Assembly (NCBI GenBank): GCA_019359155.1
Contig: JAHHHV010000004.1
Coordinates: 1-64,000, forward strand
Reading direction: 5' to 3'
DNA: 64,000 nucleotides
Source: Pegethrix bostrychoides GSE-TBD4-15B
GTDB lineage: Bacteria; Cyanobacteriota; Cyanobacteriia; Elainellales; Elainellaceae
The translations under genes and the position numbers were made by a program. Numbering within the stretch: position 1 is the first letter of the stretch; each line of letters starts with the position of its first letter. Shown here one piece after another: positions 1 to 19,905 of this stretch. The notes below the pieces were generated by a model. That model did no database searches and had not been told where the DNA came from. It saw only the letters and a program-made list of their open reading frames with translations.

Positions 1-44
1 TTGGCTTTGAATTGTGGGTTGTATTGTTTGCGTTTGTTTGCCAT
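1..44 (-). CDS. IS3-family transposase orfA, N-terminal fragment at the window edge
   Basis: Fourteen codons are visible, starting MANKRKQYNPQFKA. This start is typical of IS3-family OrfA proteins, small helix-turn-helix proteins made together with OrfB to give the active OrfAB transposase. An AGGAG ribosome site lies a few bases before the ATG at 44. The rest of the gene is beyond position 1, so intactness cannot be judged. Confidence 0.65.
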   Translation of the reverse strand, partial: MANKRKQYNPQFKA

Positions 45-124
45 GAGATACTCCTATCACAGTTGAGCAATGAGGAGCTTAGTGACCACCTTAGCCACCT
101 GTCCAGTTTTTCGGGTCCACCTCA
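1..124 (-). mobile_element. IS3-family insertion sequence, left end (runs off the window)
   Basis: Read on the minus strand, the element begins at about 124 with an outer TG and the end sequence TGAGGTGGACCCGAAAAACT, followed about 80 bases further by a ribosome site (AGGAG) and the start of a transposase orfA. The TG outer dinucleotide and the orfA start are typical of the IS3 family. The boundary at 124 is supported because the reading frame of a Uma2-type protein becomes recognisable from the next base. The other end and the target duplication lie outside the window. Confidence 0.7.
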
Positions 125-715
125 GTCGTCGCTCAGGAAAACAATATTGTCCCGCAATGGGTGCTGGAGATTGTCTCTCAGATACCGGGGGGTGAGTATG
201 ACAGTAAATTTGAAAAGTATGCCCAGATCGGGGTGCGCTACTATGTGGTCTACAACCCAGATCACTGGCGACGTGACCAGCATCAGCCGTTTGAGGTCTA
301 CCGCCTAGAGGAAGGCCATTGTGTCCCTCAGCAGGGCAATCCATTCTGGATGCCGGAACTAGGGCTGGGGATCGGCACTGAGCGGGGGCTGCATGGGGGG
401 CTGGAACGTGAGTGGCTTTACTGGTATGACGAATTGGGGCACAAATATCTACCGATTGAGAACCTCATTGCTCACCGAACGCCAATTGCATCTCCAGGAG
501 CACCTATCTTGGGAGCAGCCACAACAGCTGAGCAGGTGATACGAACCCTTGTCCGCCGTCAACTCTCTCAGCAGCTGGGACTACTACCAGCTGCTGCCCT
601 CGACTCGCTCGAACAGCTCTCTATGCCTCAACTGGATGCATTAAGTGAGGCCATCTGGGGCTTTACTTCAGCGGCAGACTTCTCGGCTTGGCTCCAGAAT
701 ACTTTGAGCCACTGA
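125..715 (+). pseudogene. Uma2-family (DUF820) endonuclease-like protein, 5' part lost to an IS
   Basis: The frame is open from the IS boundary at 125 and contains the Uma2 core (PQWVLEIVSQIPGGEYDSKF, then EKYAQIGVRYYVVYNP), which resembles the family pattern of a conserved E, a D..KF..Y stretch and a YW(v)V(y/d)P stretch. Uma2 proteins are restriction-endonuclease-like folds, very numerous in cyanobacteria and of unclear role. The N-terminal third is missing because the IS3-family element ends exactly at the start of the frame. The distal part (about residues 100-195) is an extra region often seen in cyanobacterial members. Translation from the GTG at 161 is possible, but the product would lack the front of the fold, so loss of function is inferred. 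Confidence 0.7.
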
Positions 716-721
716 TGGCCG

Positions 722-1211
722 GTGCCAATTCGACAGTCCCCTCTAGCATCGGCTTCGACAATTGCGCTCGGCTCATCTGGCGCGGGTAGCGATTGCCTTA
801 GCGTACAAGAGCCTCTTCAATCGGCACTGGCGAGGTTAATTTATCCAAGATCTTATCTATCGATAAGGATAGGTGAGGTTGGCAGGGGGACGAGATTGCG
901 ACTATCGCCGTGAAGGTCTAGCCTTTGTGCTCAGCACGACATCAGGAATGCAATGCGGTAGATCTGGATTTGGCCCAGTCGCTCTCACCAGCGCCAAAAT
1001 CGCCGGGGCAGTCCCCAGAGTTTAGCCTACGGCAGCAAGTTGAATCTGGGGCATGGGGCAATGCTCGACGACAACAGACCAGAACTGTTTCCAGATCTGC
1101 CTGACTTTGCGGGTCTGAGTCACGATATCAAGTTTTGTACTTTCCTTAGATCAATTTTCCTAATCACGCTTTAATTGACCCTCATACTTCTTGCTTTGGG
1201 GGTGAGAACCA
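722..1211. other. Gene-poor stretch, nothing recognised
   Basis: Only short frames are found (the longest about 60 codons), with no ribosome site or recognisable domain. No repeat matching the transposon left end at 4.7-5.0 kb is seen here, so the right end of the transposon is not in this stretch. The last 60 bases are T- and A-rich and may hold the promoter of the gene starting at 1212. Confidence 0.5.
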
Positions 1212-1580
1212 ATGCCTACCGTTTTGAAGTTAGCTCAGGTTCAATCTGAAACAGCGTCGGATCTTTTGAGTTCTGCTGACGTGATTGAGACCATGATCGA
1301 TTTAAAAATTCAATTGCATCAACTTGAACAAGAAATTCAAGCACTGCAACCCGCCTTCTTTGCTGCTTGCCTCATGCTCAATACTGAGAAAATCACCCGT
1401 CAGCGCGCTATTATTTCCAAACGCCTCACTCCAGGTCAATGGTGCTATTCACCTGATATTTTGGAGCAGGAGTCCCTACTCAAACAGCTTAAACAGATAT
1501 TTCAACAAGATCACGACCCCACCAAGGGCAGAGAGCTATCTTGGGTCATCAAGCTGCTACTGAGCGCGACCGTTCGCTGA
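1212..1580 (+). CDS. Hypothetical protein, 122 aa
   Basis: I do not recognise this family. The product is a small, mainly helical protein with a leucine- and glutamine-rich stretch at about residues 28-48 that could form a coiled coil; no membrane segment or signal peptide is seen. A GGGGGTGAG stretch, a fair ribosome site, lies just upstream of the ATG at 1212. The gene converges on tniQ and the two overlap by 24 bases at their 3' ends. Since it lies inside the transposon on the non-end side of tniQ, it is either cargo or a transposon-borne accessory gene. Confidence 0.55.
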   Translation: MPTVLKLAQVQSETASDLLSSADVIETMIDLKIQLHQLEQEIQALQPAFFAACLMLNTEKITRQRAIISKRLTPGQWCYSPDILEQESLLKQLKQIFQQDHDPTKGRELSWVIKLLLSATVR

Positions 1581-2069
1581 ACGCTCGTCGGTCATTTCGC
1601 TAAATCGCAGCCAGCAGTGTTCACAGATCCCACTTTCCCATAACGCTGGCAGCCGCAAGGAGGTTCCACAAGCCGGACATTGCCATCGCAACGACTGCTG
1701 GTGTCGCTCACAGCGCTCAACGCTCGCATATTGCCAAGCCCGTCGATGAATCGGCACTTCTCGATAGCAGACCGGACATAATCGAGTTCCAAGATGGAGC
1801 TGGCTGGAGTCTGGCGGCAGCATCTGGACTAGCGTCTCTCGGTTGACGCCAATCCCATTTGACAGAGATTCAAGCTCAGAACTACTAGGGGGGCGCTGTC
1901 GCGATGGCGTTTCCCAGTTTCTGACCATCACGCCACTGACGGACAGAAGTTCTGCTAACCCTAAACGACTTAAATCATTGGCTCGCCGAAACCGTCCTAG
2001 AAAATGCCCAAGGCTTTCATCAGGGTGGGGCAAGACTTGAAAGAGCCAAAAGACATCTGCTCCATTCAT
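1557..2069 (-). CDS. tniQ: TniQ, target-selection protein of a type V-K CAST-like transposon
   Basis: TniQ links target recognition to the TnsC filament in Tn7-like and CAST systems. The product (170 aa from this ATG) is about the size of the short TniQ of type V-K systems (about 167 aa) and resembles it along its length: an N-terminal helix-turn-helix with ESLGHFLGRFRRANDLS near residue 20, then two zinc-binding groups, C..C with H..C..H near residues 97-122 and C..C...C..C near residues 130-153. The ATG at 2069 overlaps the tnsC stop as ATGA, pointing to coupled translation; a GTG at 2075 is an alternative start. Cas12k, the partner expected in type V-K systems, is not in the window. Confidence 0.9.
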   Translation of the reverse strand: MNGADVFWLFQVLPHPDESLGHFLGRFRRANDLSRLGLAELLSVSGVMVRNWETPSRQRPPSSSELESLSNGIGVNRETLVQMLPPDSSQLHLGTRLCPVCYREVPIHRRAWQYASVERCERHQQSLRWQCPACGTSLRLPALWESGICEHCWLRFSEMTDERSANGRAQ

Positions 2070-2893
2070 CGGCACTCCGTGGCCACTGCTTTGAGAACAC
2101 TTAACTCAATCCGTTCAAATCCTTGTTCGAGCGATCTCACCGCTGCTTCGCGCACGATTCGGTCTAGTAAACCGATATAGCCGCCACTAGCAGGGCCTAA
2201 TACTTTTTGCATTTTGGCACTGCTCAGATGGGAGGGTTGAGGCAGTTTGAGGACATGCATCTCCCAAATGGCGCTGGTTTCAACTAATTGACTGCTGCTG
2301 AGCCGGTCATAGCGATGGCTGGCAATGAAGCGGCGCAATACCTGTTCATCTCGTCGCATCACCGCTTCGAGTCGGTCGGTTCCCACTAGCACGACCGCCA
2401 GCTGTAAACTATCCAGAATATCTTGTAGATCCGAGAACGTCTTGGGGCGCAGTCGGTGGGCTTCATCAATAATCAGCATCTCTACGCCACAGGCTTGCAG
2501 GCTGCGATAGACCCGACTGCGAATTTCTGACAGGGTGCCTCGACTCAGCTGGTATTTCAGCGCAGACAGAATTCCTTCAAACAGGTCTCGATTGCCGCTC
2601 TCTGGTGGCGACTGCCAGTAAACCACGGGGACCACGGGCGGAGACCCGGCGACTAGAGTCGGCAGATGTTTCAGCCGATAGGCATCACAGGCAATCGTTT
2701 TACCGGTGCGCGAATCTCCCATCACTCGGCAGGCCTGACGGGCTAGACGCTTGCTATCTAGCCATCGATGAAATTGCACCATCGGCTCTAGTTCGACCAC
2801 GTAACGTCGTTGAAGTCGCACAATTTCTGCGCCACGACACCAACCGACCGGAGCCTCACTCGATTCAAACTTGTCCGCTTCACCAGAGTCCAT
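2066..2893 (-). CDS. tnsC: TnsC, AAA+ regulator ATPase of a type V-K CAST-like transposon
   Basis: TnsC polymerises on DNA, connects the target complex to the transposase and enforces target immunity. From the ATG at 2893 the protein has 275 residues, nearly the length of Scytonema TnsC (276). It carries the Walker A motif GDSRTGKT followed by ACDAYR, a Walker B in CGVEMLIIDEAHRL, and the sensor-type stretch AVVLVGTDRLEAV, all very close to known V-K TnsC. The open frame extends to an upstream ATG at 2929, but the start at 2893 keeps only a 14-base overlap with tnsB, has an AGGA just before it, and gives the family's length. Order tnsB-tnsC-tniQ with overlaps indicates one operon. Confidence 0.92.
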   Translation of the reverse strand: MDSGEADKFESSEAPVGWCRGAEIVRLQRRYVVELEPMVQFHRWLDSKRLARQACRVMGDSRTGKTIACDAYRLKHLPTLVAGSPPVVPVVYWQSPPESGNRDLFEGILSALKYQLSRGTLSEIRSRVYRSLQACGVEMLIIDEAHRLRPKTFSDLQDILDSLQLAVVLVGTDRLEAVMRRDEQVLRRFIASHRYDRLSSSQLVETSAIWEMHVLKLPQPSHLSSAKMQKVLGPASGGYIGLLDRIVREAAVRSLEQGFERIELSVLKAVATECR

Positions 2894-4640
2894 ATTCCTG
2901 CTTCCACTCCTCATAGTCATGCACCACAACCTCTGGCACTGGCTGAGTCAATAAATCGCGCTCGCCCACCCCATCGTCTTTGACCGCTGCTCTCTCTTGG
3001 GTCACGGTGGGGAGAGATGCTGATGGAGCAGCTGGCGGCGGGCTTTCCTCAACAGTCTCAACAGTCTCAACAGTCTCTGGCACCCGCTTCTGCTTGCGCC
3101 CGCGTCGCAGTTGCTTGACTTCGCTATCCCGCCGTTGCACTTCTAAAAGCAATGATTGATTGCTCACAACTCGCCCTGCTGCTCTCACGCGCCGACTAAT
3201 CGCTTGCGCTTCAGCTAACGATACACACTCGGTCTCTAAGCCCTGGGCGTGGGCACGCGCCACAAATACATCCTTTGTGCCTGAGCACTGATAGACTAAG
3301 ACACTCGTGATGTCTCGCGGATTGTAGCGAATTACAATTGATTCCCCAGCATGTCCTCCTAAATGCTCTCCCCGGTAGGTTAAATTGGCAAATTGAATAT
3401 ATCCTCCCCGATATACCACTCGCCGCTCTTGTCGCATTAAACAAATATCTAATTCCCGCTCCCCTATCAGCGGTAGCTGTCTTTCACTTCCTGCTTCCCA
3501 TCGCCCAATTCGACTTTGGTTCCCCATCCGCGCATCAATACTCTGGTTGTAGCGTTCTACGATGTATCGCACCAGCAATTTCTCTAGCTCTATTAGCGTT
3601 AAACTCGCTGCTCCCTCGGCTTGCTTCGGGCGTTTCGCTACGTTACTTCCTGTATATCCAGGCAGGCTTGAAAACAACTCGCTGTTCAGCGTCCCGAATG
3701 GCCGCTCCACGATCCCGCCTTCTGACGGATACCGCCGTTGCTCACTCACTATCCCTAATTCTGTTGCTACTTGCTCTAGATGCTGGGACTGAAAGTCTTT
3801 CCCGCCATCGGTATACAAGTATTGCGGTATGCCATAGGCTCCCCAGCTTTGACTTAACTCATACCCCCCTCCATATTGTTTCGGCATTATCGCATGGCGC
3901 AACGCTAGACACACAACTACCGCACTCGGCGCTTCCATCCCCAGATGAAAGCCCATAATGCAGCGGGAATAGCTATCTACCACTATCGTTAACCACGGTC
4001 GCCCTAGTAGCTCTCCTGATTGATCTACCACCAGCAAATCGACTCGCGTGTGGTCGCACTGCCACACTTGGTTACTCTCTACGATCTCTAAATCTTGTCC
4101 GCCTTTTGTCTTTAGCCGCAAGCGCTCCCCACGCCACCCCAAACTCCGCTTCTGCTGTCGTCGCTGCCGCTGCTCGATCTCATCTCGCAATACCCGATAT
4201 ACCGTTGAACGACTCGGATATTCTGCTTCCCCAAGCTCACTCGCCCGACTCGCTACTCGCACGGCTACCTGCGCCGCACTCATCCCTCGCCCGCCTCGAT
4301 TCCCGGCTCGGTACGTCTTGATAATGAATTCCTGCCACGCCTCACCCACTCGGTGCTCTCCTCGGTCTGAACGCACCTGCCGCACTAGCCCCTTTAATCC
4401 CTGCTGCCGCCATTGCCCGACCAACCGCTTCACGCTGCTCTCACTTAGCCCTAACTGCCGCGCCACTGCTGCCTGCGCTCGTTGATACTCAACTCCTCCT
4501 CCCGCCTTCAGCAACCGAGCAATTGCTCTAACTCGCTCTACTTCTGCTCCGCTCAATTCCCCTAGCAGCTCTGCTTCGTCCTCGCCGGCTGCTGTTTCCC
4601 CACTCAAGCTCTCTGCTTCTCCTAGCCCTGCTTCTTCCAC
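2880..4640 (-). CDS. tnsB: TnsB, DDE transposase of a type V-K CAST-like transposon
   Basis: TnsB binds repeats at both transposon ends and joins the 3' ends to target DNA. The 586-residue protein has N-terminal helix-turn-helix domains (about 50-160) and an RNase H-like core with the catalytic triad D196 (WQCDHT), D278 (YTDGGKDF) and E312 (GGIVERPFG), followed by a beta-barrel and a charged linker. It ends in VHDYEEWKQEYGLW, which resembles the C-terminal hook by which V-K TnsB contacts TnsC. The start is a GTG at 4640 behind an AGGAGCGGGAGA ribosome site, with an in-frame stop shortly upstream. There is no tnsA, as expected for type V-K. The linker contains a short TVETVETVE repeat. Confidence 0.92.
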   Translation of the reverse strand: MEEAGLGEAESLSGETAAGEDEAELLGELSGAEVERVRAIARLLKAGGGVEYQRAQAAVARQLGLSESSVKRLVGQWRQQGLKGLVRQVRSDRGEHRVGEAWQEFIIKTYRAGNRGGRGMSAAQVAVRVASRASELGEAEYPSRSTVYRVLRDEIEQRQRRQQKRSLGWRGERLRLKTKGGQDLEIVESNQVWQCDHTRVDLLVVDQSGELLGRPWLTIVVDSYSRCIMGFHLGMEAPSAVVVCLALRHAIMPKQYGGGYELSQSWGAYGIPQYLYTDGGKDFQSQHLEQVATELGIVSEQRRYPSEGGIVERPFGTLNSELFSSLPGYTGSNVAKRPKQAEGAASLTLIELEKLLVRYIVERYNQSIDARMGNQSRIGRWEAGSERQLPLIGERELDICLMRQERRVVYRGGYIQFANLTYRGEHLGGHAGESIVIRYNPRDITSVLVYQCSGTKDVFVARAHAQGLETECVSLAEAQAISRRVRAAGRVVSNQSLLLEVQRRDSEVKQLRRGRKQKRVPETVETVETVEESPPPAAPSASLPTVTQERAAVKDDGVGERDLLTQPVPEVVVHDYEEWKQEYGLW

Positions 4641-4714
4641 TCTCCCGCTCCTGTTCTCTGACTAGCCCTCTCTGGCCCACTCCCGCTCAGTTTATCCTAC
4701 TCCCTATTTTTCTT

Positions 4715-4981
4715 CCTAAATAATTTGAAACTCTTTACTGACTCTAACTCCCCTCAAATCCCCTACCCTTAACCTTTTTAACCCCTCCCTCTCTACCTTC
4801 TCTGCCTATTTAATCTGACACGCCTACTCTCAAAAAGTTTTCCTATTTAATTTGACACTGCTCCCAAGTCTCATTCCCCCTGTACTACCCAGCCTCTATC
4901 CCCAGCTACATAAGCCTCTCAGCTACTTTTACCCTATCCTAAATAATTTGACATCAGTCCTATTTAATTTGACACGCGACA
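4715..4981 (-). repeat. Transposon left end with five TnsB-binding-type repeats
   Basis: Five related repeats lie upstream of tnsB, at about 4715-4731, 4805-4822, 4842-4857, 4939-4955 and 4959-4975. On the minus strand each reads like TGTCAAATTAAATAGG or TGTCAAATTATTTAGG; the innermost has TTTCAAATTA and one has TGTCAGATTA. The outermost is preceded by TGTCGCG, giving TGTCGCGTGTCAAATTA. This has the same layout as the Scytonema CAST left end, which starts TGTACAGTGACAAATTA. I therefore place the terminus at 4981. The repeats should bind TnsB, and the region probably also holds the tnsB promoter. Confidence 0.82.
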
Positions 4982-5061
4982 TCAATCCTTATGGCAAATT
5001 CCGCTTTGACCTCCCGAACCACTCCCACCACCTCGGCTTTCGTCCCCTTAATATCCCTTAA
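4982..5061 (+). pseudogene. Tn3-family transposase 3' end, remnant
   Basis: Directly outside the transposon end the plus-strand frame reads INPYGKFRFDL. This matches the conserved C-terminus of Tn3-family TnpA; the other TnpA fragment in this window has HINPYGKFELNL. Only about 25 codons remain before a stop, and the transposon end lies exactly at the histidine-isoleucine position. The remnant is too short to be certain. Confidence 0.45.
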
Positions 5062-5174
5062 TATTGCTTCGCTTTTGTTAATATGAATTTCAGCGGAGAA
5101 TAATCGATAGCACCCCTGTAACCCACACCACGCAACCATCTCAGCCTTAACGTGCGTTTCCGTCCGATTTCTAC

Positions 5175-5806
5175 CTATAGGCCTTGTGCGGGTAAAGGAC
5201 TTCTGGTTTCTTTCACCAGTTGTTTGCTGCTCTCATCAAGGCAAATCACAGGATAGCTGGGATCATCGCAACGGTGGTAGACCTCAAGTACCGCTTCCAT
5301 GCGCCAAACAAACTCAGCATTCTGCTCTGGTGGGATTACCCAACACTCTTGCTTCCACGGCTGTAGTTCGTTTTTTTAAGCGTTTGTCGCACCGTTTCAT
5401 GACTGGTTGATTCAAGATGGCCTAATTCCACCATCTGGTCTGCTAATAACCGTAAAGTCCAACGTCCTTTTCCCTTTGGGGGTTCACTACACCGTAGGGC
5501 AATCAAATGGGCTTCCTGTTCACCCTGAATCTGTCGTTTGCGTCCGGCCCCAGGACGCTGTTTGAGTGCCGCTTGCAGACCTTCTTCGACAAACCGTTGA
5601 CGAACTCGTTCAATAGTACGAACGCTAATGTCCAAAGCTTCTTGAATATCGCTATCAGACCAACTTCCACCTGTTTGATTTTGATCTGCCTTCAAGAGAA
5701 TCCGAGCATGGTTGATTTGATAAGCGGCATGTCTACCCGTTGTGGTGAACCGCTCCAGAAGCTGTAGTTCTTCTTCATTCAACGTAACAATGTATTTCTT
5801 AACCAT
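5175..5806 (-). pseudogene. IS630-family transposase, frameshifted and truncated
   Basis: The first frame (5806 to 5336) encodes the helix-turn-helix half typical of IS630 transposases in cyanobacteria (start MVKKYIVTLNEEELQLLERF). A -1 shift at a run of seven A's (plus-strand T run 5371-5377) leads into the second frame, which encodes the start of the DDE domain: NELQPWKQECWVIPPEQNAE, then VICLDESSKQLVKETR. The frame stops at 5175, far short of the rest of the catalytic domain, so the element is dead. The A run could be a natural slippage site, since some IS630 members are made by frameshifting, but the truncation makes this moot. Confidence 0.8.
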
Positions 5807-5939
5807 CAGTTTGATATAAATGCTTCCCTCCTACTATAGCTATTACCCGTCAAAATTTACCTGACAAACCACTAGTACGGTTCGTCAACAGCATCATTTG
5901 CTAGAACTACCCCGATAAAAAACGTTAATCAGCAACGCT

Positions 5940-6902
5940 TCACCAAGAATCTAAAACCGATAGATTTATTAACTCTTGAATTACATTAAGAAATTGGCGT
6001 AAGACGATCGAGGAATCATCACCTCGCCAGACCACAGCAACCTGACGAGTTAAGCCGATATCTCGGAGCGATCGATAGACGACTCCTTCTCGACTCAACG
6101 TTTGGACATGGTTAGGGAGGATCGATACACCCACACCCGCTGCTACTAAACTGAGCAGCGCTACGGCTCCACTAGCGACCACGGTTTGGACAATCTTAGG
6201 TTCAAAGCCCGCCTTCTGACACAACAGAATCACCGATTGGTAAAAGGGAAAGACATCAAAGGAGGGCAAAATAATTTGCTCATCTTTGAGGGCGGTTAGG
6301 GCGACTTGGGATTGGACAGCGAGGGGATGATTGGCGGGTACAGCCAGGATAAAATATTCCTGCAAAATGGGTTGGAAAATCAGGTCTGATTCGCTGCTGT
6401 CAAACCGCTCAGCCTGTTGAAAAGTAATATCAATCTGCTCAGTTCTTAGCATAGAAATCTGTTCTTCAACGGTCACTTCACGCATTTCCAATACCACATT
6501 CGGAAAACGCTTATGAAACGATTGAACCACTTCAGGCAGAATACTATTTGCCATGACATTAGTAATGCCAATGACTAAGCGTCCGATCTGTCCTTGACTA
6601 GCTTGCTGCGCCCGTAAGATAGCGCGATCGAGATGGGCGATCGCCTGTTGTGCTTCGGCTAGAAAGACTTCTCCGGCTTCAGTCAAAGCAATAGGGCGTT
6701 TGGTACGGTCAAGCAATTTGACTGGATAGGGATTCTGCCCATTACTCAGCAATTTTTCCAGCGCCTGGATTCTCTGCGTCAAGGGCGGCTGCTTAATTCC
6801 TAACCGTTTAGCCGCTTCCGTAAAATTGTTCTCAGATTGCACCAATGCTAGGAAGTAGCAGATTTGTCGAAGTTCAAACTGACTTAGGTATTGAAAATCC
6901 AT
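5940..6902 (-). CDS. LysR-family transcriptional regulator
   Basis: A full-length LysR-type regulator (320 aa). An N-terminal winged helix-turn-helix (about residues 9-67, with FTEAAKRLGIKQPPLTQRIQALEKLL) precedes a periplasmic-binding-protein-like effector domain (about 95-305). Such regulators usually control a neighbouring, often divergent, gene in response to a small molecule. Here the divergent gene at 7031 is a small protein of unknown role, and the nearest metabolic genes are the 5-oxoprolinase (8335) and the DUF1445 gene (18722). A link to 5-oxoproline or D-glutamate is a guess from position. The start ATG at 6902 gives the normal family N-terminus. Confidence 0.9.
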   Translation of the reverse strand: MDFQYLSQFELRQICYFLALVQSENNFTEAAKRLGIKQPPLTQRIQALEKLLSNGQNPYPVKLLDRTKRPIALTEAGEVFLAEAQQAIAHLDRAILRAQQASQGQIGRLVIGITNVMANSILPEVVQSFHKRFPNVVLEMREVTVEEQISMLRTEQIDITFQQAERFDSSESDLIFQPILQEYFILAVPANHPLAVQSQVALTALKDEQIILPSFDVFPFYQSVILLCQKAGFEPKIVQTVVASGAVALLSLVAAGVGVSILPNHVQTLSREGVVYRSLRDIGLTRQVAVVWRGDDSSIVLRQFLNVIQELINLSVLDSW

Positions 6903-7030
6903 AGGCCTCTCTACTATATCTTTTAGAATATTTTACTATTTCTAAGTTTACTTGCAAAATACATTGCAAGCCGCAGACACTTGCTGCACGCCCCTGGTTA
7001 GCTGTAGAACGATACCAAAATAAGAAGCTC

Positions 7031-7405
7031 ATGAACGACAGTGTATTTTCCCGTGCGAACTATATCGGTCGCATCAGCAGTGCTGGTGGAAGTTTACGGG
7101 TCAAAGATTCGCTGAACGCTGCTGACCCGATCGATATTTATCAATACAGGGTGCACCCTAGGTCAGCGTTTACTGCTAGGAGTTCGTTTAGCCCTGGGGG
7201 AGGTAGTTTTGATTTAGGCATCTATTACAAAGATCGTCAAACGGGTAAGGTCATTCCTTTTACAGGATCTACTATCCGAATTGAGGGCAACGACACAATT
7301 GATATTTTAACGCCTAGTCTTTCCAGAACCACTACGTTCTACCTTAAGCTCAGCAAACCTAGAGGAGCAGTTGATTACGAGTTTAAGCTTCAGGCGGTAA
7401 AGTAA
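7031..7405 (+). CDS. Small protein with a pre-peptidase-C-like beta domain
   Basis: The 124-residue product is rich in beta-strand and resembles the small bacterial pre-peptidase C-terminal (PPC) type domain found in many secreted cyanobacterial proteins: an opening segment with SVFSRANYIGRISSAGG, a DIYQYRV strand, and a closing YYLKLSK/YEFKLQ pair. No classical signal peptide is seen. It is followed by a strong hairpin terminator at 7424-7458, so it is transcribed on its own. Its upstream region is shared with the divergent LysR gene. Function unknown. Confidence 0.65.
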   Translation: MNDSVFSRANYIGRISSAGGSLRVKDSLNAADPIDIYQYRVHPRSAFTARSSFSPGGGSFDLGIYYKDRQTGKVIPFTGSTIRIEGNDTIDILTPSLSRTTTFYLKLSKPRGAVDYEFKLQAVK

Positions 7406-7423
7406 ACCTGGGCTGAAGGATAC

Positions 7424-7458
7424 CATTTTTGTGGTAGGCAATGCCCACCACAAAAATG
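7424..7458 (+). terminator. Hairpin terminator after the PPC-like gene
   Basis: The arms CATTTTTGTGGTAGGCA and TGCCCACCACAAAAATG pair over 17 positions with one mismatch and a one-base loop. A/T stretches at the base of the stem make it suitable for either strand. It lies 19 bases past the stop at 7405. Confidence 0.7.
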
Positions 7459-7637
7459 CTGATTACTGATTTTGCATAACCTCGACTCCCATTGATCTAT
7501 ATCAGTCTCTATATCAGTCCGAGATCAGTTGTTATCCCGTAGTGCAGGCTTTTAATCTACGCGGGCAAGATGCCCTCCCTATGTTCCTGATCCAAATAGG
7601 AATGAAATCAATTCAAGCACGATCGAAAGGATGAAAT

Positions 7638-8258
7638 ATGATTAAGCAATCTTTTGCGTTGGAAGAAAGTGGCGATCATCGTTTAGAAATTGTTTGGGAA
7701 AAGCTCTACAAGAACGGTGTGGTTTCAATCGACGGACAAGAGATCGGCGTTCTTCCCGATCAAAAAACGTTGTACCAGGGGCTGGAATATGATTTGCCAG
7801 ATGGCTCAATGTTGAGTTTTCGGTTGGTCAAGCAACTGACCTCTACAGAATTTCATGTCCTTCGGGACGGGAAACCGCTTCCGGGTTCGACTTCTGACCC
7901 CCAGATCCGGTTAGCAAACGCCTACACAACGGTGTATATAATTGCGGGATTTAATCTCCTCCTCGGATTGGTCTCTGTCCTGCTTAACATTCAGTTCCTA
8001 CAACAGCTTGGCATTGGGTTTAGCTCCATTTTGTTTGGTCTACTGTTCTTGGCTTTAGGCTATTTAGTCCAACGCAAGTCCTCGCTGGCACTGATAGTAG
8101 CGGTGGTGGTGTTTGTGATAAATGATTTCGCCAATTTCATTTATACGGCTGCTCAAGGTCATGGGTTGAGCAATGGAGGATTAGTGATAATGATTGGGCT
8201 ACTCGTCCCTATGTTTCAGGGATTTGGGGCGATTGAGGCGTTGAAACGGAAAATCTAG
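7638..8258 (+). CDS. Hypothetical membrane protein, 206 aa
   Basis: The N-terminal half (about 1-90) is a soluble beta-rich domain with the phrase DGQEIGVLPDQKTLYQGLEYDLPDGS, of a type I associate with cyanobacterial membrane proteins of unknown function. The second half has about four hydrophobic segments (roughly 95-117, 122-146, 150-168 and 177-197). A GAAAGGATG stretch before the ATG can serve as ribosome site. It lies between the PPC-like gene and the 5-oxoprolinase, and a role cannot be assigned. Confidence 0.7.
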   Translation: MIKQSFALEESGDHRLEIVWEKLYKNGVVSIDGQEIGVLPDQKTLYQGLEYDLPDGSMLSFRLVKQLTSTEFHVLRDGKPLPGSTSDPQIRLANAYTTVYIIAGFNLLLGLVSVLLNIQFLQQLGIGFSSILFGLLFLALGYLVQRKSSLALIVAVVVFVINDFANFIYTAAQGHGLSNGGLVIMIGLLVPMFQGFGAIEALKRKI

Positions 8259-8334
8259 AGCAATATCAGAGTTGCAAATTTAGTACGCTTCAGCAATTTC
8301 ATTTTTTAACTTAAGTCATTATAGGTCTAACCTA

Positions 8335-11300
8335 ATGAATACTGATGCACAAAATCCTCGCTGGCAATTCTGGATCGATCGCGGCGGTACGTTCACCGAT
8401 ATTGTCGCGCGTCGTGCAGATGGGCATACCGTGGTTAAGAAATTGTTGTCTGAAAATCCCGATTGCTATCAAGACGCGGCAATTCAGGGCATTAGAGAAA
8501 TCTTAGAACTGCCTGTGGGTGCAATAATTTCCACTGAGCAGATAGAAGTTGTGAAGATGGGAACAACGGTAGCGACGAATGCGCTGCTGGAACGGAAGGG
8601 CGATCAAACGGTGCTCCTGATCACAAAAGGCTTTCGGGATGCCCTGCGCATTGGCTATCAGAATCGTCCCAATATTTTTGCCCGCCAGATTATTCTGCCG
8701 GAAATGCTCTATGAGCGGGTGATCGAAGTGGAGGAACGCCACTCGGCTCAGGGGGAAGTGTTGCTACCGCTGCGAATCAATGCCACCCTGCGGCAAGCAC
8801 TCCAATCGGCTTACGAGGATGGCATCCATTCCTGTGCGATCGTGCTGCTGCATGGCTATCGCTATCCGGCTCACGAACAGCAGTTGGCCGAGCTGGCGGA
8901 AGAAATTGGCTTTACCCAGATTTCGGTGTCCCATCGGGTCAGCCCCTTGATGAAGCTGGTGAGCCGGGGGGATACAACCGTCGTGGATGCCTACCTGTCG
9001 CCGATTTTACGTCGCTATGTCGACCAGATTGCAACGGTGCTAGGGGTGAGAGATCCAGCAGCCGATCCAGCAAAGCCACCCAAGCTGATGTTTATGCAGT
9101 CGAACGGCGGGCTGACCGATGCCCGGCGATTTCAGGGCAAGGACAGTATCCTGTCAGGGCCAGCGGGCGGCATTGTCGGTGCGGTCAAAACTAGCGCCAT
9201 AGCCGGATTCGACAAAATCATTGGCTTTGATATGGGCGGCACCTCCACCGATGTTTCGCACTTCAACGGGGACTATGAACGTACCTTTGAAACTGAGGTG
9301 GCGGGTGTGCGGCTGCGGGCCCCCATGATGGCGATCCATACCGTGGCCGCAGGGGGCGGTTCGATTCTGGGGTTTGATGGTGCTCGCTATCGGGTCGGGC
9401 CAGACTCCGCCGGAGCCAATCCGGGACCCGCTTGCTACCGACGGGGTGGACCGCTGACGGTCACAGATTGCAATCTGATGGTGGGCAAAGTGCAGGCTGA
9501 CTTCTTTCCAGCGGTATTTGGTGCAACTGGAGACTTACCACTAGATCAGGCTGTCGTGCGGCAACAGTTTGCACAGTTGGCGGCTCAAATTGCTGAGACA
9601 ACTGGCAGTCTGCAAACGCCAGAACAGGTAGCCGCCGGATTTCTGGCCATTGCCATCGACAAAATGGCGAATGCGATTAAGAAGATTTCGATCCAGCGTG
9701 GCTATGACGTGACCGAATATACGCTCTGCTGCTTTGGTGGCGCAGGCGGACAACATGCCTGCCTGATTGCCGAAACCCTGGGCATGACGCAGATTTTTAT
9801 TCACCCGTTTGCTGGAGTTTTGTCAGCCTACGGCATCGGTTTAGCAGATGTGCGGACGCTGAAGGAAAAAGCCGTCGAGTTACCTTTAGGCGACGCGACG
9901 CTTCCCGACCTCAAAGCTACCCTAACGGAGCTATCCGAGGCCAGTCGAGCTGACCTAACGGCCCAGGGCGTTCTGGAATCCCAGATCCAGATGGTTCAGA
10001 AGGTGCATTTGCGCTACGCTGGCACCGACTCGGCCCTGCTGGTAGATTGGGCCGACCTAACCGCCATGCGTCAGCAGTTTGAGCAAATCTATCAGCGTCG
10101 CTATGGGTTTACCATGCCCGATAAAGCCCTGCTGATCGAAGCTGTTTCAGTGGAGGGCGTTGGACAAATCACCCCACCCCAGGCAGTGTCTAGCCAACGG
10201 AATCGCACCCGTCCCCTAGAACCCCTGGCGACCGTGCAGGTCTACACGCAGGGTAATTGGCACGATACTCCGGTTTACCAGCGGCGGGATTTGCAGCCTG
10301 GTGATCGGATTGTCGGGGCGGCCCTGATTGTCGAACCTACGGGCACCAACATGGTTGAACCGGGCTGGTGGGCCGAACTCACTGAGCAAGACCATTTGCT
10401 GCTGAAGCGATCGGCTGCCTCGCCCGTCCGCCCAACCCCTGCGGAAGCTGACCTCTCCTCGCCCACTCCCGATCCCGTGCTGCTAGAGATCTTTAACAAC
10501 CTGTTTCAAGCGGTTGCCGAAGAGATGGGCATCACGCTGCAAAATACCAGCTACTCGGTGAATATCAAGGAACGGCTAGATTTTTCCTGCGCGATTTTTG
10601 ACCAGCAAGGCCAGCTGGTTGCCAATGCGCCGCATATTCCCGTGCATCTCGGCTCCATGAGCGAGAGCGTTCGCAGTTTGATCCAGGCCAAAGCCGAACT
10701 GCTGAAACCGGGCGATGTCTATGTCTCGAATAATCCCTACAACGGCGGCACCCATTTACCCGATATCACCGTGATCACGCCCCTGTTTCTGGATTCCAGC
10801 AAGCCTTGCTTCTACGTTGCTTCGCGAGGCCACCACGCTGATGTGGGCGGGATCACCCCCGGTTCAATGCCCCCTTTCAGTACCCGCCTGGAACAGGAAG
10901 GGCTGTTGCTGGATAATTTCTTGCTGGTTGAGCAGGGGCAGTTTCGCGCTGCCGAACTGCTGGAGCTGCTGACGGGCGGCCCCTATCCGGTGCGCAATTC
11001 CACCCAAAATCTAGCCGACCTGCAAGCCCAAATTGCTGCGAATGAACGGGGCATACAGGAATTGAGACAGATGGCTGAGCATTACGGGTTGAAGAGGGTG
11101 CAATCCTATATGCAGCACGTGCAGGAGAATGCCGCTGAATCGGTGCGGCGCGTGATTGAAGTACTCAAGGATGGTCACTTTATCTACCTCACCGATGAAG
11201 GCAGCCAGATTGAGGTTGATATTCAAATTAATCACGCTAATCGCACTGCCCGCATAGACTTTACAGGCACCTCTCCCCAGCAGGAGAGCAACTTCAACGC

Positions 11301-12003
11301 GCCGCTGGCCGTCTGTCAGGCTGCCGTGCTCTATGTGTTTCGCACTCTGGTGGACGATCAGATTCCGCTCAACGCCGGATGTTTGCAGCCTTTAGAGGTC
11401 ATTGTTCCGGCTGGATCGATGCTGTCTCCCCATCCGCCTGCTGCCGTGGTGGCGGGCAATGTAGAAACGTCCCAGGCGATCGTCAATGCCCTCTATGGGG
11501 CGCTGAACGTGATGGCTGCTGCCCAGGGCACCATGAATAACTTCACCTTCGGCAACGCGCAGTACCAGTATTACGAAACGATTTGCGGTGGATCAGGAGC
11601 CGGAGCGAATTTCAACGGGACAGACGCTGTCCAGACCCACATGACCAACTCTCGCCTGACCGATCCAGAAGTGCTGGAATGGCGTTACCCAGTGCTAGTA
11701 GATGCCTTCACGATTCGCAACCAGAGCGGCGGTGCAGGACAATATCGCGGTGGCAATGGCGTGATTCGCCGGATTCGATTTCGAGAGGCGATGACGGCAG
11801 CAATTCTGTCGGGACATCGAAAAGTACCGCCGTTTGGTTTGGAGGGTGGCTTACCCGGTGCAGTCGGGCGGAATACCGTAGAACGTGAAAATGGAACGAT
11901 TGAGGAACTGGGCAGTAAGGCCGAAGTCCAAATGAATCCAAACGATGTTTTTGTGATTGAAACACCAGGCGGCGGCGGGTTCGGTCAGGATCTAGAAGAT
12001 TAG
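8335..12003 (+). CDS. 5-oxoprolinase (ATP-hydrolysing), fused HyuA-HyuB type
   Basis: The enzyme converts 5-oxoproline (pyroglutamate) to glutamate with ATP. The 1222-residue protein is the fused form: hydantoinase A/oxoprolinase half with WIDRGGTFTDIVARR near residue 13, a GFDMGGTSTDVSHF nucleotide-site motif near residue 298 and a GGAGGQHACLIAE stretch near residue 468, then a hydantoinase B half from about residue 700 (YSVNIKERLDFSCAIFD, VSNNPYNGGTHLPDITV, RGHHADVGG) to the end. Length and order match bacterial and eukaryotic 5-oxoprolinases. Related N-methylhydantoinases and acetone carboxylases share the fold, so substrate is inferred. A DUF1445 gene 7 kb downstream could make 5-oxo-D-proline. 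Confidence 0.9.
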   Translation: MNTDAQNPRWQFWIDRGGTFTDIVARRADGHTVVKKLLSENPDCYQDAAIQGIREILELPVGAIISTEQIEVVKMGTTVATNALLERKGDQTVLLITKGFRDALRIGYQNRPNIFARQIILPEMLYERVIEVEERHSAQGEVLLPLRINATLRQALQSAYEDGIHSCAIVLLHGYRYPAHEQQLAELAEEIGFTQISVSHRVSPLMKLVSRGDTTVVDAYLSPILRRYVDQIATVLGVRDPAADPAKPPKLMFMQSNGGLTDARRFQGKDSILSGPAGGIVGAVKTSAIAGFDKIIGFDMGGTSTDVSHFNGDYERTFETEVAGVRLRAPMMAIHTVAAGGGSILGFDGARYRVGPDSAGANPGPACYRRGGPLTVTDCNLMVGKVQADFFPAVFGATGDLPLDQAVVRQQFAQLAAQIAETTGSLQTPEQVAAGFLAIAIDKMANAIKKISIQRGYDVTEYTLCCFGGAGGQHACLIAETLGMTQIFIHPFAGVLSAYGIGLADVRTLKEKAVELPLGDATLPDLKATLTELSEASRADLTAQGVLESQIQMVQKVHLRYAGTDSALLVDWADLTAMRQQFEQIYQRRYGFTMPDKALLIEAVSVEGVGQITPPQAVSSQRNRTRPLEPLATVQVYTQGNWHDTPVYQRRDLQPGDRIVGAALIVEPTGTNMVEPGWWAELTEQDHLLLKRSAASPVRPTPAEADLSSPTPDPVLLEIFNNLFQAVAEEMGITLQNTSYSVNIKERLDFSCAIFDQQGQLVANAPHIPVHLGSMSESVRSLIQAKAELLKPGDVYVSNNPYNGGTHLPDITVITPLFLDSSKPCFYVASRGHHADVGGITPGSMPPFSTRLEQEGLLLDNFLLVEQGQFRAAELLELLTGGPYPVRNSTQNLADLQAQIAANERGIQELRQMAEHYGLKRVQSYMQHVQENAAESVRRVIEVLKDGHFIYLTDEGSQIEVDIQINHANRTARIDFTGTSPQQESNFNAPLAVCQAAVLYVFRTLVDDQIPLNAGCLQPLEVIVPAGSMLSPHPPAAVVAGNVETSQAIVNALYGALNVMAAAQGTMNNFTFGNAQYQYYETICGGSGAGANFNGTDAVQTHMTNSRLTDPEVLEWRYPVLVDAFTIRNQSGGAGQYRGGNGVIRRIRFREAMTAAILSGHRKVPPFGLEGGLPGAVGRNTVERENGTIEELGSKAEVQMNPNDVFVIETPGGGGFGQDLED

Positions 12004-12138
12004 CCGCAGCTTTGACGATGCATAGGCTGTCAAAGCTAGCGGATATGTGTTTAAAGCAGATGGTAATACCAGGGGACAGGGAGCAAAACTGCTGGCTGGC
12101 GGACTTTCAACGTGTTTTGTTGCAAAGGTTAATTTCCT

Positions 12139-13128
12139 ATGTTGATTTCCCGGCTATGTCGTCAATGGATCACTGTCAGTTTTACAATCTTAGCGACTGT
12201 TTTAATTGCAATTCTGCCCGCAGCTGCTGAAGCGCCGTTTTACTGGAAGGCAATTAATGTCGAAGTCAATGTCCAGCAAAACGGTGATATGTGGGTCACG
12301 GAAATCCAGGACTATGTCTTTACTGCAAATCACACCAATCAGCGCTACCGCTACATTCCGCTAGATAAAGTCGATCAAATTACAGATATTACCGTGACCG
12401 AAAAGGGCCAGCCGTTAGCAGCCACAACGGGAGTTGAAAACAATCAGCTCTGGATTCGCTGGCAGCATCCTCTGCATCCCCCTGAATCCCATACCTTTGT
12501 GCTGAAGTATCGAGTAATTGGCGGCATCCAGGTGAATGGGAACACCGCTCAGGTCTACTGGAAAGCTATTTTTGCCGACCGTCAAGCACCTGTGCAATCT
12601 GGCAAAGCGACCGTTCGTCTACCATCAGCTCTGTCAGGGCAGATTCAGGGCTACACCGCCTATGGAGTTCCCTTTAGCAGTCGAGCAGTTGACGACAGAA
12701 CTTTTGAATTTGCGGCAGTACGTCCTCTCCAGCCTGGAGAAGAACTCGAAGTTCAGGTCAGTTTTCCGAACTCAGGGCTGAATTTTGCAAAACCTCAGTT
12801 GCAGCATTCTAATCTTATAGAACAAATTTTTCTGACTGTATCTGCTATTCCATTTGTGCTGATTTTCCTCGCTATACCTCTAGCTATAGTAACCGTGGTA
12901 ATTCTGAGTAACCGTTGCCCTCAATGTGAAAAGAGGTTAACCATCAGGTCTCGTGTTATGACCCGCCCTACTCCTCAGGCAAGCGGCAAATCGTGGGTAA
13001 CGCACCACTGCGACCACTGTTCCTACCACAAAGAATTTGAACAAACTATTGCCTACAGCGATGGTGGGGATGGCGGTGGTGGCGGTGGCGGTGGCGGCGG
13101 CGGCGGCGGTGGCGGTGGCGGTGGATAA
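12139..13128 (+). CDS. DUF2207-type membrane protein with a polyglycine tail
   Basis: A signal peptide (about 1-31, ending AAAEAP) precedes an extracytoplasmic DUF2207 domain (about 32-215), a membrane segment (about 232-258), a cytoplasmic zinc-ribbon-like part with CPQC and CDHC pairs (about 262-297) and a tail of some eighteen consecutive glycines. DUF2207 proteins are common membrane proteins of unknown function. Related cyanobacterial proteins often end in glycine/serine-rich tails, but a pure glycine run is extreme. The gene ends with repeated GGC/GGT codons, so polymerase slippage may vary its length. It is transcribed alone between the oxoprolinase gene and a MITE. Confidence 0.75.
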   Translation: MLISRLCRQWITVSFTILATVLIAILPAAAEAPFYWKAINVEVNVQQNGDMWVTEIQDYVFTANHTNQRYRYIPLDKVDQITDITVTEKGQPLAATTGVENNQLWIRWQHPLHPPESHTFVLKYRVIGGIQVNGNTAQVYWKAIFADRQAPVQSGKATVRLPSALSGQIQGYTAYGVPFSSRAVDDRTFEFAAVRPLQPGEELEVQVSFPNSGLNFAKPQLQHSNLIEQIFLTVSAIPFVLIFLAIPLAIVTVVILSNRCPQCEKRLTIRSRVMTRPTPQASGKSWVTHHCDHCSYHKEFEQTIAYSDGGDGGGGGGGGGGGGGGGGGG

Positions 13129-13187
13129 TAATCTTTCTGTTTGGATGATTGCGACTACCTGCAATTTTTCATAATCGAGAAAAATTT

Positions 13188-13332
13188 GGCGTTGCTGAAT
13201 AGCGGTATGAATTCGCCCCCCAGCCCCCAATTCTGGGGGAGCCGGATTCCTCAAAGTCCCCCAGAATTGGGGGATTTAGGGGGCGAGGAGACTTGCGACT
13301 CAGGTAGATTCATACCTTAATTCAGCAACGCC
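13188..13332. repeat. MITE-like inverted-repeat element
   Basis: The ends are GGCGTTGCTGAAT on the left and its reverse complement on the right; similarity continues inward through GGTATGAAT, giving about 30-bp imperfect terminal repeats. The interior has a second inverted repeat of C-rich and G-rich arms (CCCCCAATTCTGGGGG type). The element is about 145 bp with no coding capacity, and sits between the DUF2207 gene and the TPR gene. A single related end occurs at 19659-19690. Confidence 0.75.
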
Positions 13333-13417
13333 AAAAATTTTTCAGGCGCGGTCAAGCACTGGAGAACTTGGGCTAATCGTCACTTCTAATTCGGCATTCA
13401 ACCTACCTATTTCCCCT

Positions 13418-14629
13418 ATGAAGTTACTTAAACTTAGCGTCATCGTCTCGATTACATTTGGTTTCAACATCGCTCCAGCAATTAGAACTATTGCTGTTGT
13501 TGGCCAGAATCCAATTAATGATGCAGCTCAATTTGGTGTTCTCAATTCTCAGGTCATCCGAACAGAGCTGACTCAAACCGCAAGCGCATTCGTTTCTCAG
13601 CGTCCAGACTCGGCTCAAACAATTGAGCAGAAGGCTGCTGAAGCCGACCGCTTGATGGAGCAGGGCATTCGGCAGTACCAGACAAATCGCTACCGAGAGG
13701 CAATTCAATCCTGGCAGCAGGCATTGGAGATCTGTCGAGATCCGGCTGTGCGTCGAGCCTATCCCCAAGCTAGCCGCAACGAAGAAGCAAATGCGTTGAA
13801 TAATCTAGGAGCTGCCTACCGTGCTCTAAGCCAGTATGACCAGGCAATCGAATATTGTCAGCAGGCATTGTCCATCTTTCGAGAAGTGGACGATCGCAAC
13901 GGTGAAGCAGCGACGCTGAATAATTTGGGAGCTGTCTACGATGCTTTGAGCCAGTATGACCAGGCGATTGATTATTACCAGCAGGCATTGCCCATCTACC
14001 GAGAAGTGGACGATCGCAACAGTGAGGCAGGGGCGCTGAGCAATTTGGGAATTGCCTATGCTGCTTTGAGCCAGTATGACCGGGCAATCGACTATTATCA
14101 GCAGGCATTGCCCATCTACCGAGAAGTGGCAGATCGCAATGGTGAGGCAACAGTCCTGTTGAACCTGGGGGCAGCTTACACGGCGTTGGGCCGCTTCGAT
14201 CGAGCAACTGACTACTACCAGCAGGCGCTCCCCATCTTTCGAGCAGTGGGTAATCGCAACAGCACGGCAAAGGTACTAGTTAATTTAGGAAATATTGACG
14301 CTTCATTAGGCCAATACGACCGGGCGATTGACTACTATCAGCAGGCACTTCCTATCCTGCGTCAGGTTGGAGATCGAGCCAGCGAAGCAAAGCTTCTAGC
14401 CAACATTGGCCGCCTCTATGCTGCCCAGAACAGTCCTGTATCAGCCATCCAGCAGCTTCAAAGGTCGGTAGAGGTGCGGGAGGTAATTCGCGCCGATCTG
14501 CGAGGACTGCCTGAGGCTGACCAGCAGGCTTACGCCGATAGCATTGCCGATGACTATCGGTTGCTAGCAAACCTACTCCGGCAGCAAAACCGCGACCGAG
14601 AAGCACAGATTGTACTGGATTTGCTGTAA
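13418..14629 (+). CDS. Secreted TPR-repeat protein, apparently a CHAT-type protein cut short
   Basis: A signal-peptide-like N-terminus (about 1-30) is followed by about five 40-residue TPR units of the NNLGAAYxALSQYDQAIDYYQQALPIYREV kind (residues about 125-330), nearly identical at DNA level. The last part (IRADLRGLPEADQQAYADSI..., REAQIVLDLL) is the linker that in many cyanobacterial TPR-CHAT proteins leads into the CHAT protease domain. Here the protein stops at that point (403 aa), so the CHAT domain is missing. TPR units bind other proteins. Whether this is a natural short form or a truncation cannot be told from one sequence. Confidence 0.8.
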   Translation: MKLLKLSVIVSITFGFNIAPAIRTIAVVGQNPINDAAQFGVLNSQVIRTELTQTASAFVSQRPDSAQTIEQKAAEADRLMEQGIRQYQTNRYREAIQSWQQALEICRDPAVRRAYPQASRNEEANALNNLGAAYRALSQYDQAIEYCQQALSIFREVDDRNGEAATLNNLGAVYDALSQYDQAIDYYQQALPIYREVDDRNSEAGALSNLGIAYAALSQYDRAIDYYQQALPIYREVADRNGEATVLLNLGAAYTALGRFDRATDYYQQALPIFRAVGNRNSTAKVLVNLGNIDASLGQYDRAIDYYQQALPILRQVGDRASEAKLLANIGRLYAAQNSPVSAIQQLQRSVEVREVIRADLRGLPEADQQAYADSIADDYRLLANLLRQQNRDREAQIVLDLL

Positions 14630-14694
14630 TTCGTTGCAGAGTATGCCGCTGACAATATTTAGAACATCTCGCTTTTCAAAAGGAGTTTCACCCT

Positions 14695-15504
14695 ATGCCA
14701 GCCAAAACGAGCCAGACCGAGCTAGTCACTAGCAAAACCGTGACTTGCCTATGGTGCCACCAAAAGAATCGCCTGTATCAGCAAGCTGCTCAAGGCAGTT
14801 ACACTTGTGGCAGCTGTCAAAAACAGATCCCCAATCCATTCGGCTCCTCACCCCCGCCACCCCAATCTGCTGCAAAATCTAGCAAGACTTTTGATTTTGT
14901 GATTCTGACAGGCGTTGTTCTAGCGGGTGTCGGATTATTAACGTTTTCAATTCGGATTCTATCGAGAGGAGAGCAGTTGCCGCCTGTTGCTTCAATGCCC
15001 GTCAAATCAGCCGTCACTGCTTCATCACCCAAGCCAATTCCGAGTCTATCCGTTTCAAGCCCGTCCGTTCCGAGTCCGTCTGTAGTTTTGCAAAACCGCT
15101 CTTTGCCCGCCAGCAAAGTTTTGGTCTCGCCTACGTCGAGCGGGGACGGGAAACTCAAGGTTTCCAACGGTACAGCCCGCGATGCCTACGTCAAGCTAGT
15201 CGATTCGGTTTCTCGCAAGTTGGTGACAGCATTCTACGTTAAGTCTAGCGCCAACTTCACAGTTGAGCAGATTCCCGATGGTACCTATGCAGTGTTATTC
15301 GTAACTGGTGAAGATTGGGATGCCAAAACAAAGTCCTTCACCCGTAGAGGCAGCTTCACAAAGTTCGACAAGTCTCTCAATTTCGTTACCAAGCAGGCAT
15401 CCAACGGCATTCAATACACCATCATTAAGCTGACGCTGAATCCGGTTGTTAACGGTAACGCGACGCTCAGCGGTGTGGACGAGCAGGAGTTTGGCCGGTA
15501 TTGA
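14695..15504 (+). CDS. Zinc-ribbon single-pass membrane protein, unknown function
   Basis: The 269-residue protein has an N-terminal zinc ribbon (CLWC near residue 18, CGSC near residue 39), one membrane segment (about 66-87), a serine/proline-rich linker (about 100-145) and a C-terminal beta-rich domain (about 150-260, with DAYVKLVDSVSRKL and VEQIPDGTYAVLF) that looks like a small Ig-like or carboxypeptidase-regulatory-like fold. An AAAAGGAG ribosome site precedes the ATG. It lies 33 bases before the aminopeptidase homologue. I do not recognise a named family. Confidence 0.7.
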   Translation: MPAKTSQTELVTSKTVTCLWCHQKNRLYQQAAQGSYTCGSCQKQIPNPFGSSPPPPQSAAKSSKTFDFVILTGVVLAGVGLLTFSIRILSRGEQLPPVASMPVKSAVTASSPKPIPSLSVSSPSVPSPSVVLQNRSLPASKVLVSPTSSGDGKLKVSNGTARDAYVKLVDSVSRKLVTAFYVKSSANFTVEQIPDGTYAVLFVTGEDWDAKTKSFTRRGSFTKFDKSLNFVTKQASNGIQYTIIKLTLNPVVNGNATLSGVDEQEFGRY

Positions 15505-15537
15505 TCGAGCTTTTCAAGTAAAAGAGGTTTGTTAAAA

Positions 15538-16311
15538 ATGGAAGCAGATAAGAACGCAGAAATCATCCAGATCCTCTCGAGCAGAGAACTTGAAAAAATG
15601 CGGCAATCTGGACGGATGGCGGTCGATCTCCTCTCGCACCTCGCGCCAATGATCAGGACTGGAGTCAGCACTCTTGCCCTGAATGATGCAGCAGCAGCCT
15701 GGCTTCAGGCAAGGGGCGTCAAGAGCGCCGTGCTGGGATATCACGGATATCCAAAATCAATTTGCACTAGCGTTAATGAAGCTGTATGCAATGCTATTCC
15801 CACAGTAACTCAGATTCTTCAGCAGGGAGACATCATCAACATCACGGTTGCTTTGATAGTAGGCGGCTATCATGCAAAAACTTCCCGGACTTTTTGCGTT
15901 GAGCCAGTCTCCCCACTGGCCAGAAGATTAGTGGCGGCGGCAGAGGAATGCCTCAGGTGTGGCATTGCAGAAGTAAAACCCGAAGCCAGACTGGGTGACA
16001 TTGGCGCTGCAATTCAGGAATACGCGGAGCAAGAGGGGTTCTCTGTAGTGCGCGACTATGTAGGACATGGAATTGGCAGAGTGTTTCATGCCGCTCCTCA
16101 GGTTTCCCATTACGGCACTCGCGGCAAAGGTAAAAAGCTCAGGCCCGGTATGGTATTCACAATTCAACCTATGATCAACGAAGGCACCTGGAAAGTTGAA
16201 GTCCTGCCCGATCGCTGGACTGCTGTCACCAAAGATCGCAAACTCTCGGCTCAGTTTGAACATATGGTTGCCGTCACGGAGAATGGTGTAGAGATTCTGA
16301 CGCGGTTCTAA
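15538..16311 (+). CDS. Methionine aminopeptidase homologue, probably inactive
   Basis: The whole protein (257 aa) aligns with type I methionine aminopeptidase (for example GFSVVRDYVGHGIGRVFH and SAQFEHMVAVTENGVEIL), which removes N-terminal methionine using two metal ions. Of the five metal ligands of the E. coli enzyme, only two remain: H177 (its H171) and E241 (E235). The others are changed: D97 to T103 (NITVALI), D108 to K114 (YHAKTS) and E204 to Q210 (TIQPM). The catalytic H79 is N85 (VCNAIP). A di-metal site cannot form, so I infer a pseudoenzyme or a protein with another role. The start at 15538 follows an AGAGG ribosome site. Confidence 0.88.
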   Translation: MEADKNAEIIQILSSRELEKMRQSGRMAVDLLSHLAPMIRTGVSTLALNDAAAAWLQARGVKSAVLGYHGYPKSICTSVNEAVCNAIPTVTQILQQGDIINITVALIVGGYHAKTSRTFCVEPVSPLARRLVAAAEECLRCGIAEVKPEARLGDIGAAIQEYAEQEGFSVVRDYVGHGIGRVFHAAPQVSHYGTRGKGKKLRPGMVFTIQPMINEGTWKVEVLPDRWTAVTKDRKLSAQFEHMVAVTENGVEILTRF

Positions 16312-16373
16312 AGAGAACAAACAAGTTGATTGCTAGATCCAAAAAACTTCCCTATTGATCTAAGGATTGAATC

Positions 16374-18191: not shown

Positions 18192-18233
18192 TCAGCTTTC
18201 ATCTTTAAGAATTCACCTCAAAGCAGGACAGCT

Positions 18234-19516: not shown

Positions 19517-19658
19517 GTCATGGAAGTTCAGCTAAATTACCTGATTGTGCTTCAAGGAAGTGTGGAGTAGGGTCATAGAAACCATCCTGATTACTGCCAT
19601 AGCCTATGGAATGCCCATTCTGCGGTCACATCAACATCACATATCAAACGAATGGGAA

Positions 19659-19690
19659 AATTTGCGGTGTTGCTGAATTGAGGTATGAAC
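19659..19690 (+). repeat. Lone MITE end related to the element at 13188
   Basis: The stretch AAAATTTG, then GTGTTGCTGAATTGAGGTAT, matches the left end of the 13188-13332 element. No matching inverted partner lies within the next few hundred bases, so it is a solo end or a remnant of a larger element. Confidence 0.55.
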
Positions 19691-19781
19691 CTGGTATGAA
19701 GTGGGACATCCCAGAATTTCAAGTAAGGGGCTTGCAAGAAAATACCCCCCCAATCAAGTCGGGACAATTGTAATATCCCAT

Positions 19782-19835: not shown

Positions 19836-19905
19836 AGATCAAACGGCTATGAAACTCAGCCCAGAGCACGGGGAGTTCGAGGTAGGGATTCATGCCAGGA
19901 AACGG

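Follow-up and report, generated by a model that had tools for sequence, protein, structure and literature searches.

The DNA analysed here (the window) comprises bases 1-64000 of contig C4 of the assembly G000 (92 contigs, 5.72 Mb, 99.97% complete by markers) and carries, close to the contig start, one transposon left end, three transposition genes and a small fourth gene (Table 1). A previous sequence-only reading had described V-K-type tnsB, tnsC and tniQ genes at 1557-4981, and these are real: the ShCAST proteins are the best solved-structure matches of all three products, near full-length, and the TnsB catalytic motifs (CDHT195, TDGGKD277 and GIVERPFG309), the Walker A (GDSRTGKT71) and Walker B (LIIDEAHR152) motifs of TnsC, and the zinc-ligand motifs of TniQ (CPVC/CERH/CPAC/CEHC) are all intact. 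The size given for TnsB (586 aa) stands, while the 275 aa given for TnsC correspond to a later start than the TTG that yields 287 aa, and TniQ has 172 aa. With TnsB, TnsC and a short TniQ of V-K type present, the transposition proteins are, judging from their homology, of type V-K ancestry. The fourth gene, ORF120, had been overlooked.

Table 1. Features at the start of the window (positions in the window), with strand and supporting evidence.
Feature	Position	Strand	Evidence
IS3-like multicopy element, terminal part; contig breaks inside it	1..124	.	identical 124 bp opens contig C49
Arm past ORF120: truncated Uma2/DUF4351 gene region	125..1048	+	91% to C53 14752-13850
ORF120, ~120-aa helical protein (122-aa ORF), convergent with tniQ and overlapping its 3' end	1212..1580	+	homologues in the same position
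tniQ, short V-K-type, 172 aa	1557..2075	-	ShTniQ match, E 9.2e-42; motifs
tnsC, AAA+ regulator, 287 aa (TTG start)	2066..2929	-	ShTnsC match, E 1.1e-83; motifs
tnsB, DDE transposase, 586 aa, intact	2880..4640	-	ShCAST TnsB match, E 1.9e-183; motifs
Left end: TGTCGCG tip (4975-4981) plus five TGTCAAATTAWWTAGG-type TnsB-site repeats	4714..4981	-	5 matches vs. 0.05 expected
Target: Tn3-family tnpA 3' end plus terminal repeat (about 5146-5183)	4979..5183	+	98% to the C53 copy, L064 9705-9502

The left end, previously recognized by its TGTCGCG tip and repeats, is confirmed. Its tip ends at 4981, and upstream of tnsB it has five TGTCAAATTA-type repeats; the TGTCAAATTAWWTAGG motif occurs five times in 4715-4974, on one strand only, against a chance expectation of 0.05 in 64 kb, and at least five occurrences were seen in none of 100 shuffles. 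The leftward search for a right end that had been proposed as a check detected neither an inverted tip nor an inverted repeat in the 1.2 kb from ORF120 to the contig edge, and no right end between 1557 and 1; a G000-wide search with the repeat motif returned the left-end copies and one lone match with two mismatches (three matches for the control). Since window base 1 is also the start of contig C4, this is a true contig end and not an arbitrary cut. It is important to note, however, that the smallest G000 contig seen is 10,317 bp long and shorter ones were apparently dropped from the assembly, and thus absence claims for this genome call for care.

The insertion target is a Tn3 tnpA gene, with no tRNA gene nearby (none in window 1-20000), in a rearranged, IS-rich stretch. 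An intact copy of this tnpA (988 aa) is found on contig C53, which also shares with the window the ~0.9-kb stretch beyond ORF120 (91%). The 5' part of tnpA is absent from the other side of the window element, and when the G000 assembly was searched with the C53 region, this 5' part matched only C53 itself, which fits the displacement of distal DNA, an argument weakened by the missing small contigs. Adjoining the Tn3 end lies an N-terminal fragment (156 aa) of an IS630-family transposase (5336-5806), and a 35-bp near-perfect inverted repeat is present at 7424-7458.

ORF120 adjoins tniQ at 10 out of 10 sites; that is, the gene block recurs at nine other cyanobacterial sites, some of them partly decayed, with protein identities across the ten sites of roughly 46-85%. 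ORF120 homologues are 50-59% identical and occupy the same position. For instance, a protein of the Gloeothece verrucosa PCC 7822 plasmid NC_014534.1 matches ORF120 at 54% over 108 residues (E 4e-45) and adjoins tnsB-tnsC-tniQ without Cas12k beside it; further copies hold this position in Pseudanabaenaceae LEGE 13415, beside a broken tniQ on a Gloeocapsopsis dulcis plasmid, and in four further genomes of the window's order. Among 36 genomes of this order, five contained eight ORF120 matches, all beside tniQ, seven with a full or split tnsC plus tnsB and one with a truncated tnsB. ORF120 was not found in the Cas12k-bearing loci examined or in viral contigs and phages, and searches of Pfam, PHROGs and PDB gave nothing below E 0.06. 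The structure predicted from two sequences comprises three helices (mean pLDDT 63) and is too poor for a fold search.

No match to the NCBIfam Cas12k model was obtained at E<=10 in the 5.7-Mb G000 assembly, from which contigs below ~10.3 kb are apparently absent, and a repeat search at E<=1 found none in G000, LEGE 13415, G393 or G409. In a control search, this model was positive in 24 of 25 other cyanobacterial genomes with a TnsC match at E<=1e-30. The absence of cas12k between tniQ and the window edge, noted before, is confirmed up to the contig end at position 1, and no CRISPR array is among the repeats listed for 900-5200. Cas12k is present elsewhere in G405 and G410 and on the Gloeothece plasmid, but a general role for Cas12k supplied in trans was rejected given the four genomes above in which none was found. 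On the Gloeothece linear plasmid, split cas12k frames (NC_014534.1, 386944-388909) lie 370 kb from the ORF120 element.

Trees with known V-K elements, which had also been proposed as a check, place the window element away from the Cas12k-linked rows. In the TnsB+TnsC tree with outgroups, the nine rows of the ORF120 block form one clade (100/100), which takes in every ORF120-linked row and also an older truncated copy from the same genome, and the window groups with G405 and this older copy (98/97); a TnsC-only tree agrees (100/99). When rooted with outgroups other than Tn5053, no sequence of which is in the tree, the ORF120 clade falls inside the Cas12k-linked elements (95/94). This nesting makes the loss of Cas12k in the ORF120 clade likely but unproven, since a tree keeping the Cas12k rows together was not rejected (AU p 0.13), and the ORF120 clade could possibly be sister to the Cas12k elements instead.

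The ORF120 side of the element faces a replicon or contig end at all ten sites, at 0.2-12.2 kb, a proximity inflated by contig-end bias in draft genomes; as a control, none of 21 V-K-type TnsC loci on contigs >1 Mb was within 13 kb of an end. The distances are 1.2 kb in the window, 0.5 kb in G405, 3.6 kb in G393, 1.1 kb in G409, 1.7, 3.2 and 8.1 kb on G410 contigs C2, C7 and C1, 12.2 kb on the Gloeothece plasmid, which is linear, 0.2 kb in LEGE 13415, and 1.2 kb (from the palindrome centre) in Gloeocapsopsis. Several of these relatives' ends are hairpin telomeres. On G410 C1, two identical 14.5-kb arms, each bearing the tnsB-tnsC-tniQ-ORF120 block plus a resolvase gene, are joined at a perfect palindrome whose centre is GAATTC; the G409 contig C76 terminates in a 42-bp perfect palindrome, the Gloeocapsopsis end is a perfect palindrome of 3.5 kb, and G410 C7 stops, by alignment, about 49 bp before the hairpin centre. 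The telomere of the window's own replicon was not seen, as contig C4 ends in an IS copy, and no convincing palindromic telomere was found at the contig starts and some of the contig ends of G000.

In G410, G393 and Gloeothece, the DNA separating ORF120 from the end encodes a ResT/TelK-type telomere resolvase. G000 carries such a gene as well (PF16684 at G000:C81:1522-2037, E 1.1e-24), and the domain occurs in 5/5 ORF120-bearing genomes of the order vs. 13/31 others (one-sided Fisher p about 0.02, hand-computed for a comparison chosen after the fact). In the stretch G000:C81:1159-3258 this gene lies beside recQ, xseA and recA, which suggests a linear chromosome; C81 joins C33 through a minisatellite, and hence adjacency of this gene to a telomere is unsupported.

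A mobile unit is seen in G410. There, the start of C2 and the end of C7 share 5,436 bp at 100% identity, which begin precisely at the tip of a left end and run outward, and the inboard flanks differ. Further, on C7 a younger element has its left end inside the tniQ of an older one, which it interrupts (locus L130, 4291-7406 and 7406-11371); the distal part of the older element is gone. Both features would be expected of a unit that moves whole, left end to telomere, and displaces the old end. The nesting on C7 is, in its own right, a natural record of one end displacing another.

Hence, we favor the hypothesis, with a probability of about 0.68, that the window element is a Tn7-like telomeric transposon with a V-K module (TnsB, TnsC and short TniQ) and no Cas12k. 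In the mechanism that we propose, the mobile unit would be bounded on one side by a single left end and on the other by the telomere, a hairpin, of a linear replicon, and would include tnsB-tnsC-tniQ-ORF120 as well as any DNA farther out. When the hairpin is replicated, two telomere arms would become joined into a palindrome in which two left ends face each other, a layout seen in a relative (G410 C1). The two left ends might then be paired by TnsB, and a target near another telomere chosen by TnsC and TniQ, with ORF120 helping in place of Cas12k. Finally, the telomere resolvase would cut the inserted palindrome so that the target replicon gains a new end and probably loses its distal DNA.

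Alternatively, the block might be a compact transposon of about 4 kb that lacks Cas12k, has two ends (LE-tnsB-tnsC-tniQ-ORF120-RE) and prefers subtelomeric targets, with the telomere being outside the mobile unit. In its favor, a sequence resembling an inverted right end is present about 240 bp beyond ORF120 in the G410b and G393 copies: in G410b, a 25-bp inverted tip (92%) and the tip of the left end are 3,966 bp apart, and in G393 a similar tip occurs along with a MITE-like pair of left and right ends. However, G410b shows no matching 5-bp duplication (GCGGG/GTGGA), the identity between G410 C2 and C7 starts at the left-end tip and runs past the right end toward the telomere, and no right end is found within the available sequence of G405, the window or Gloeothece, where 12.6 kb up to the end of the plasmid were covered. 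We consider this alternative unlikely, albeit worth weighing, and some members of the clade may transpose in the ordinary way with two ends.

The sequence-only reading had offered two options, a complete CAST cut by the window or a related element without Cas12k that uses another targeting mode. The second has gained from the absence of Cas12k, the separate clade, ORF120 and the telomeric kin, and the first is unsupported. There is a residual chance of a complete V-K CAST that continues past the contig edge with Cas12k, a CRISPR array and a right end, because contig C4 stops 1.2 kb beyond ORF120, the assembly apparently lacks contigs below about 10 kb, and V-K elements carry cargo that separates tniQ from cas12k (tnsC and cas12k are a few to some 24 kb apart). 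Such an arrangement is nonetheless quite improbable given that no Cas12k was found in the assembly or in G393, G409 and LEGE 13415, that the position after tniQ is taken by ORF120, which was not found in the Cas12k loci searched, that the first 20 kb of the window hold no tRNA gene, and that the element belongs to a separate clade. Less probable still is that a V-K CAST has decayed and its Cas12k has gone through a chance deletion: broken cas12k genes are frequent in other genomes and the insertion lies in a rearranged stretch, but the four genes are open with their motifs intact and the same block, at the divergence described above, recurs at ten sites, which disfavours this explanation.

The element resembles type V-K CASTs in its full-length homologous TnsB, TnsC and short TniQ, the same gene order and similar left-end repeats. 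It differs from them in the extra ORF120, its separate clade and the lack of Cas12k, a right end and a tRNA neighbour, and a CRISPR array was not seen. Likewise, it shares homologous TniB and TniQ domains with Tn5053/Tn402-type elements (TniA-TniB-TniQ-TniR), but the window proteins are far closer to V-K and no TniR resolvase gene is seen beside tniQ. Telomeric transposons reportedly have a single defined end, sit at the telomeres of linear cyanobacterial replicons and have a resolvase nearby, and the likeness extends to one specific end, the telomere location in relatives and the nearby resolvase, whereas some members of the ORF120 clade also have a right end. The window itself shows a left end only, up to the contig edge, and a resolvase gene in the genome. 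In the favored reading, the element belongs to a recently described class and represents no new category, the telomeric transposons of linear bacterial genomes having been published as a class in 2025 (Hsieh et al., Science 2025, eadp1973).

The potentially new part could be ORF120 as a Cas12k substitute. It is a candidate accessory or target-selection factor that would replace Cas12k as the selector. More specifically, it is tempting to hypothesize that ORF120 is a protein target selector, that this V-K lineage has reverted from RNA- to protein-guided targeting, and that it homes to hairpin telomeres via TniQ and TnsC, a tentative proposal to which we give somewhat less than even odds. V-K transposition proteins serve as programmable insertion tools, for which Cas12k-independent insertions are a drawback. 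A natural branch that lacks Cas12k, carries one additional small protein and has telomeres as targets provides a direct comparison for what Cas12k contributes to TniQ and TnsC, and the ORF120 branch offers a candidate protein module for target choice. Our results also flag the window strain and related cyanobacteria as probably having linear replicons.

Finally, a few other arrangements were observed. On a Trichormus variabilis plasmid (locus L183, 2998-5756), a tnsB-tnsC pair has no tniQ or Cas12k annotated alongside. In G393 (contig C78, locus L132, about 2884-3213), a ~330-bp MITE-like unit with inverted TGTCGCGTCTC ends and no genes is apparently a non-autonomous relative. Shared TGACCGC-type repeats are found upstream of tnsB in locus L127 (about 4700-4880) and directly beside the resolvase gene in L132 and in L130 (G410 C7), where they sit between the right-end-like sequence and that gene; these repeats may mark a second family of single-ended units without tnsBC.
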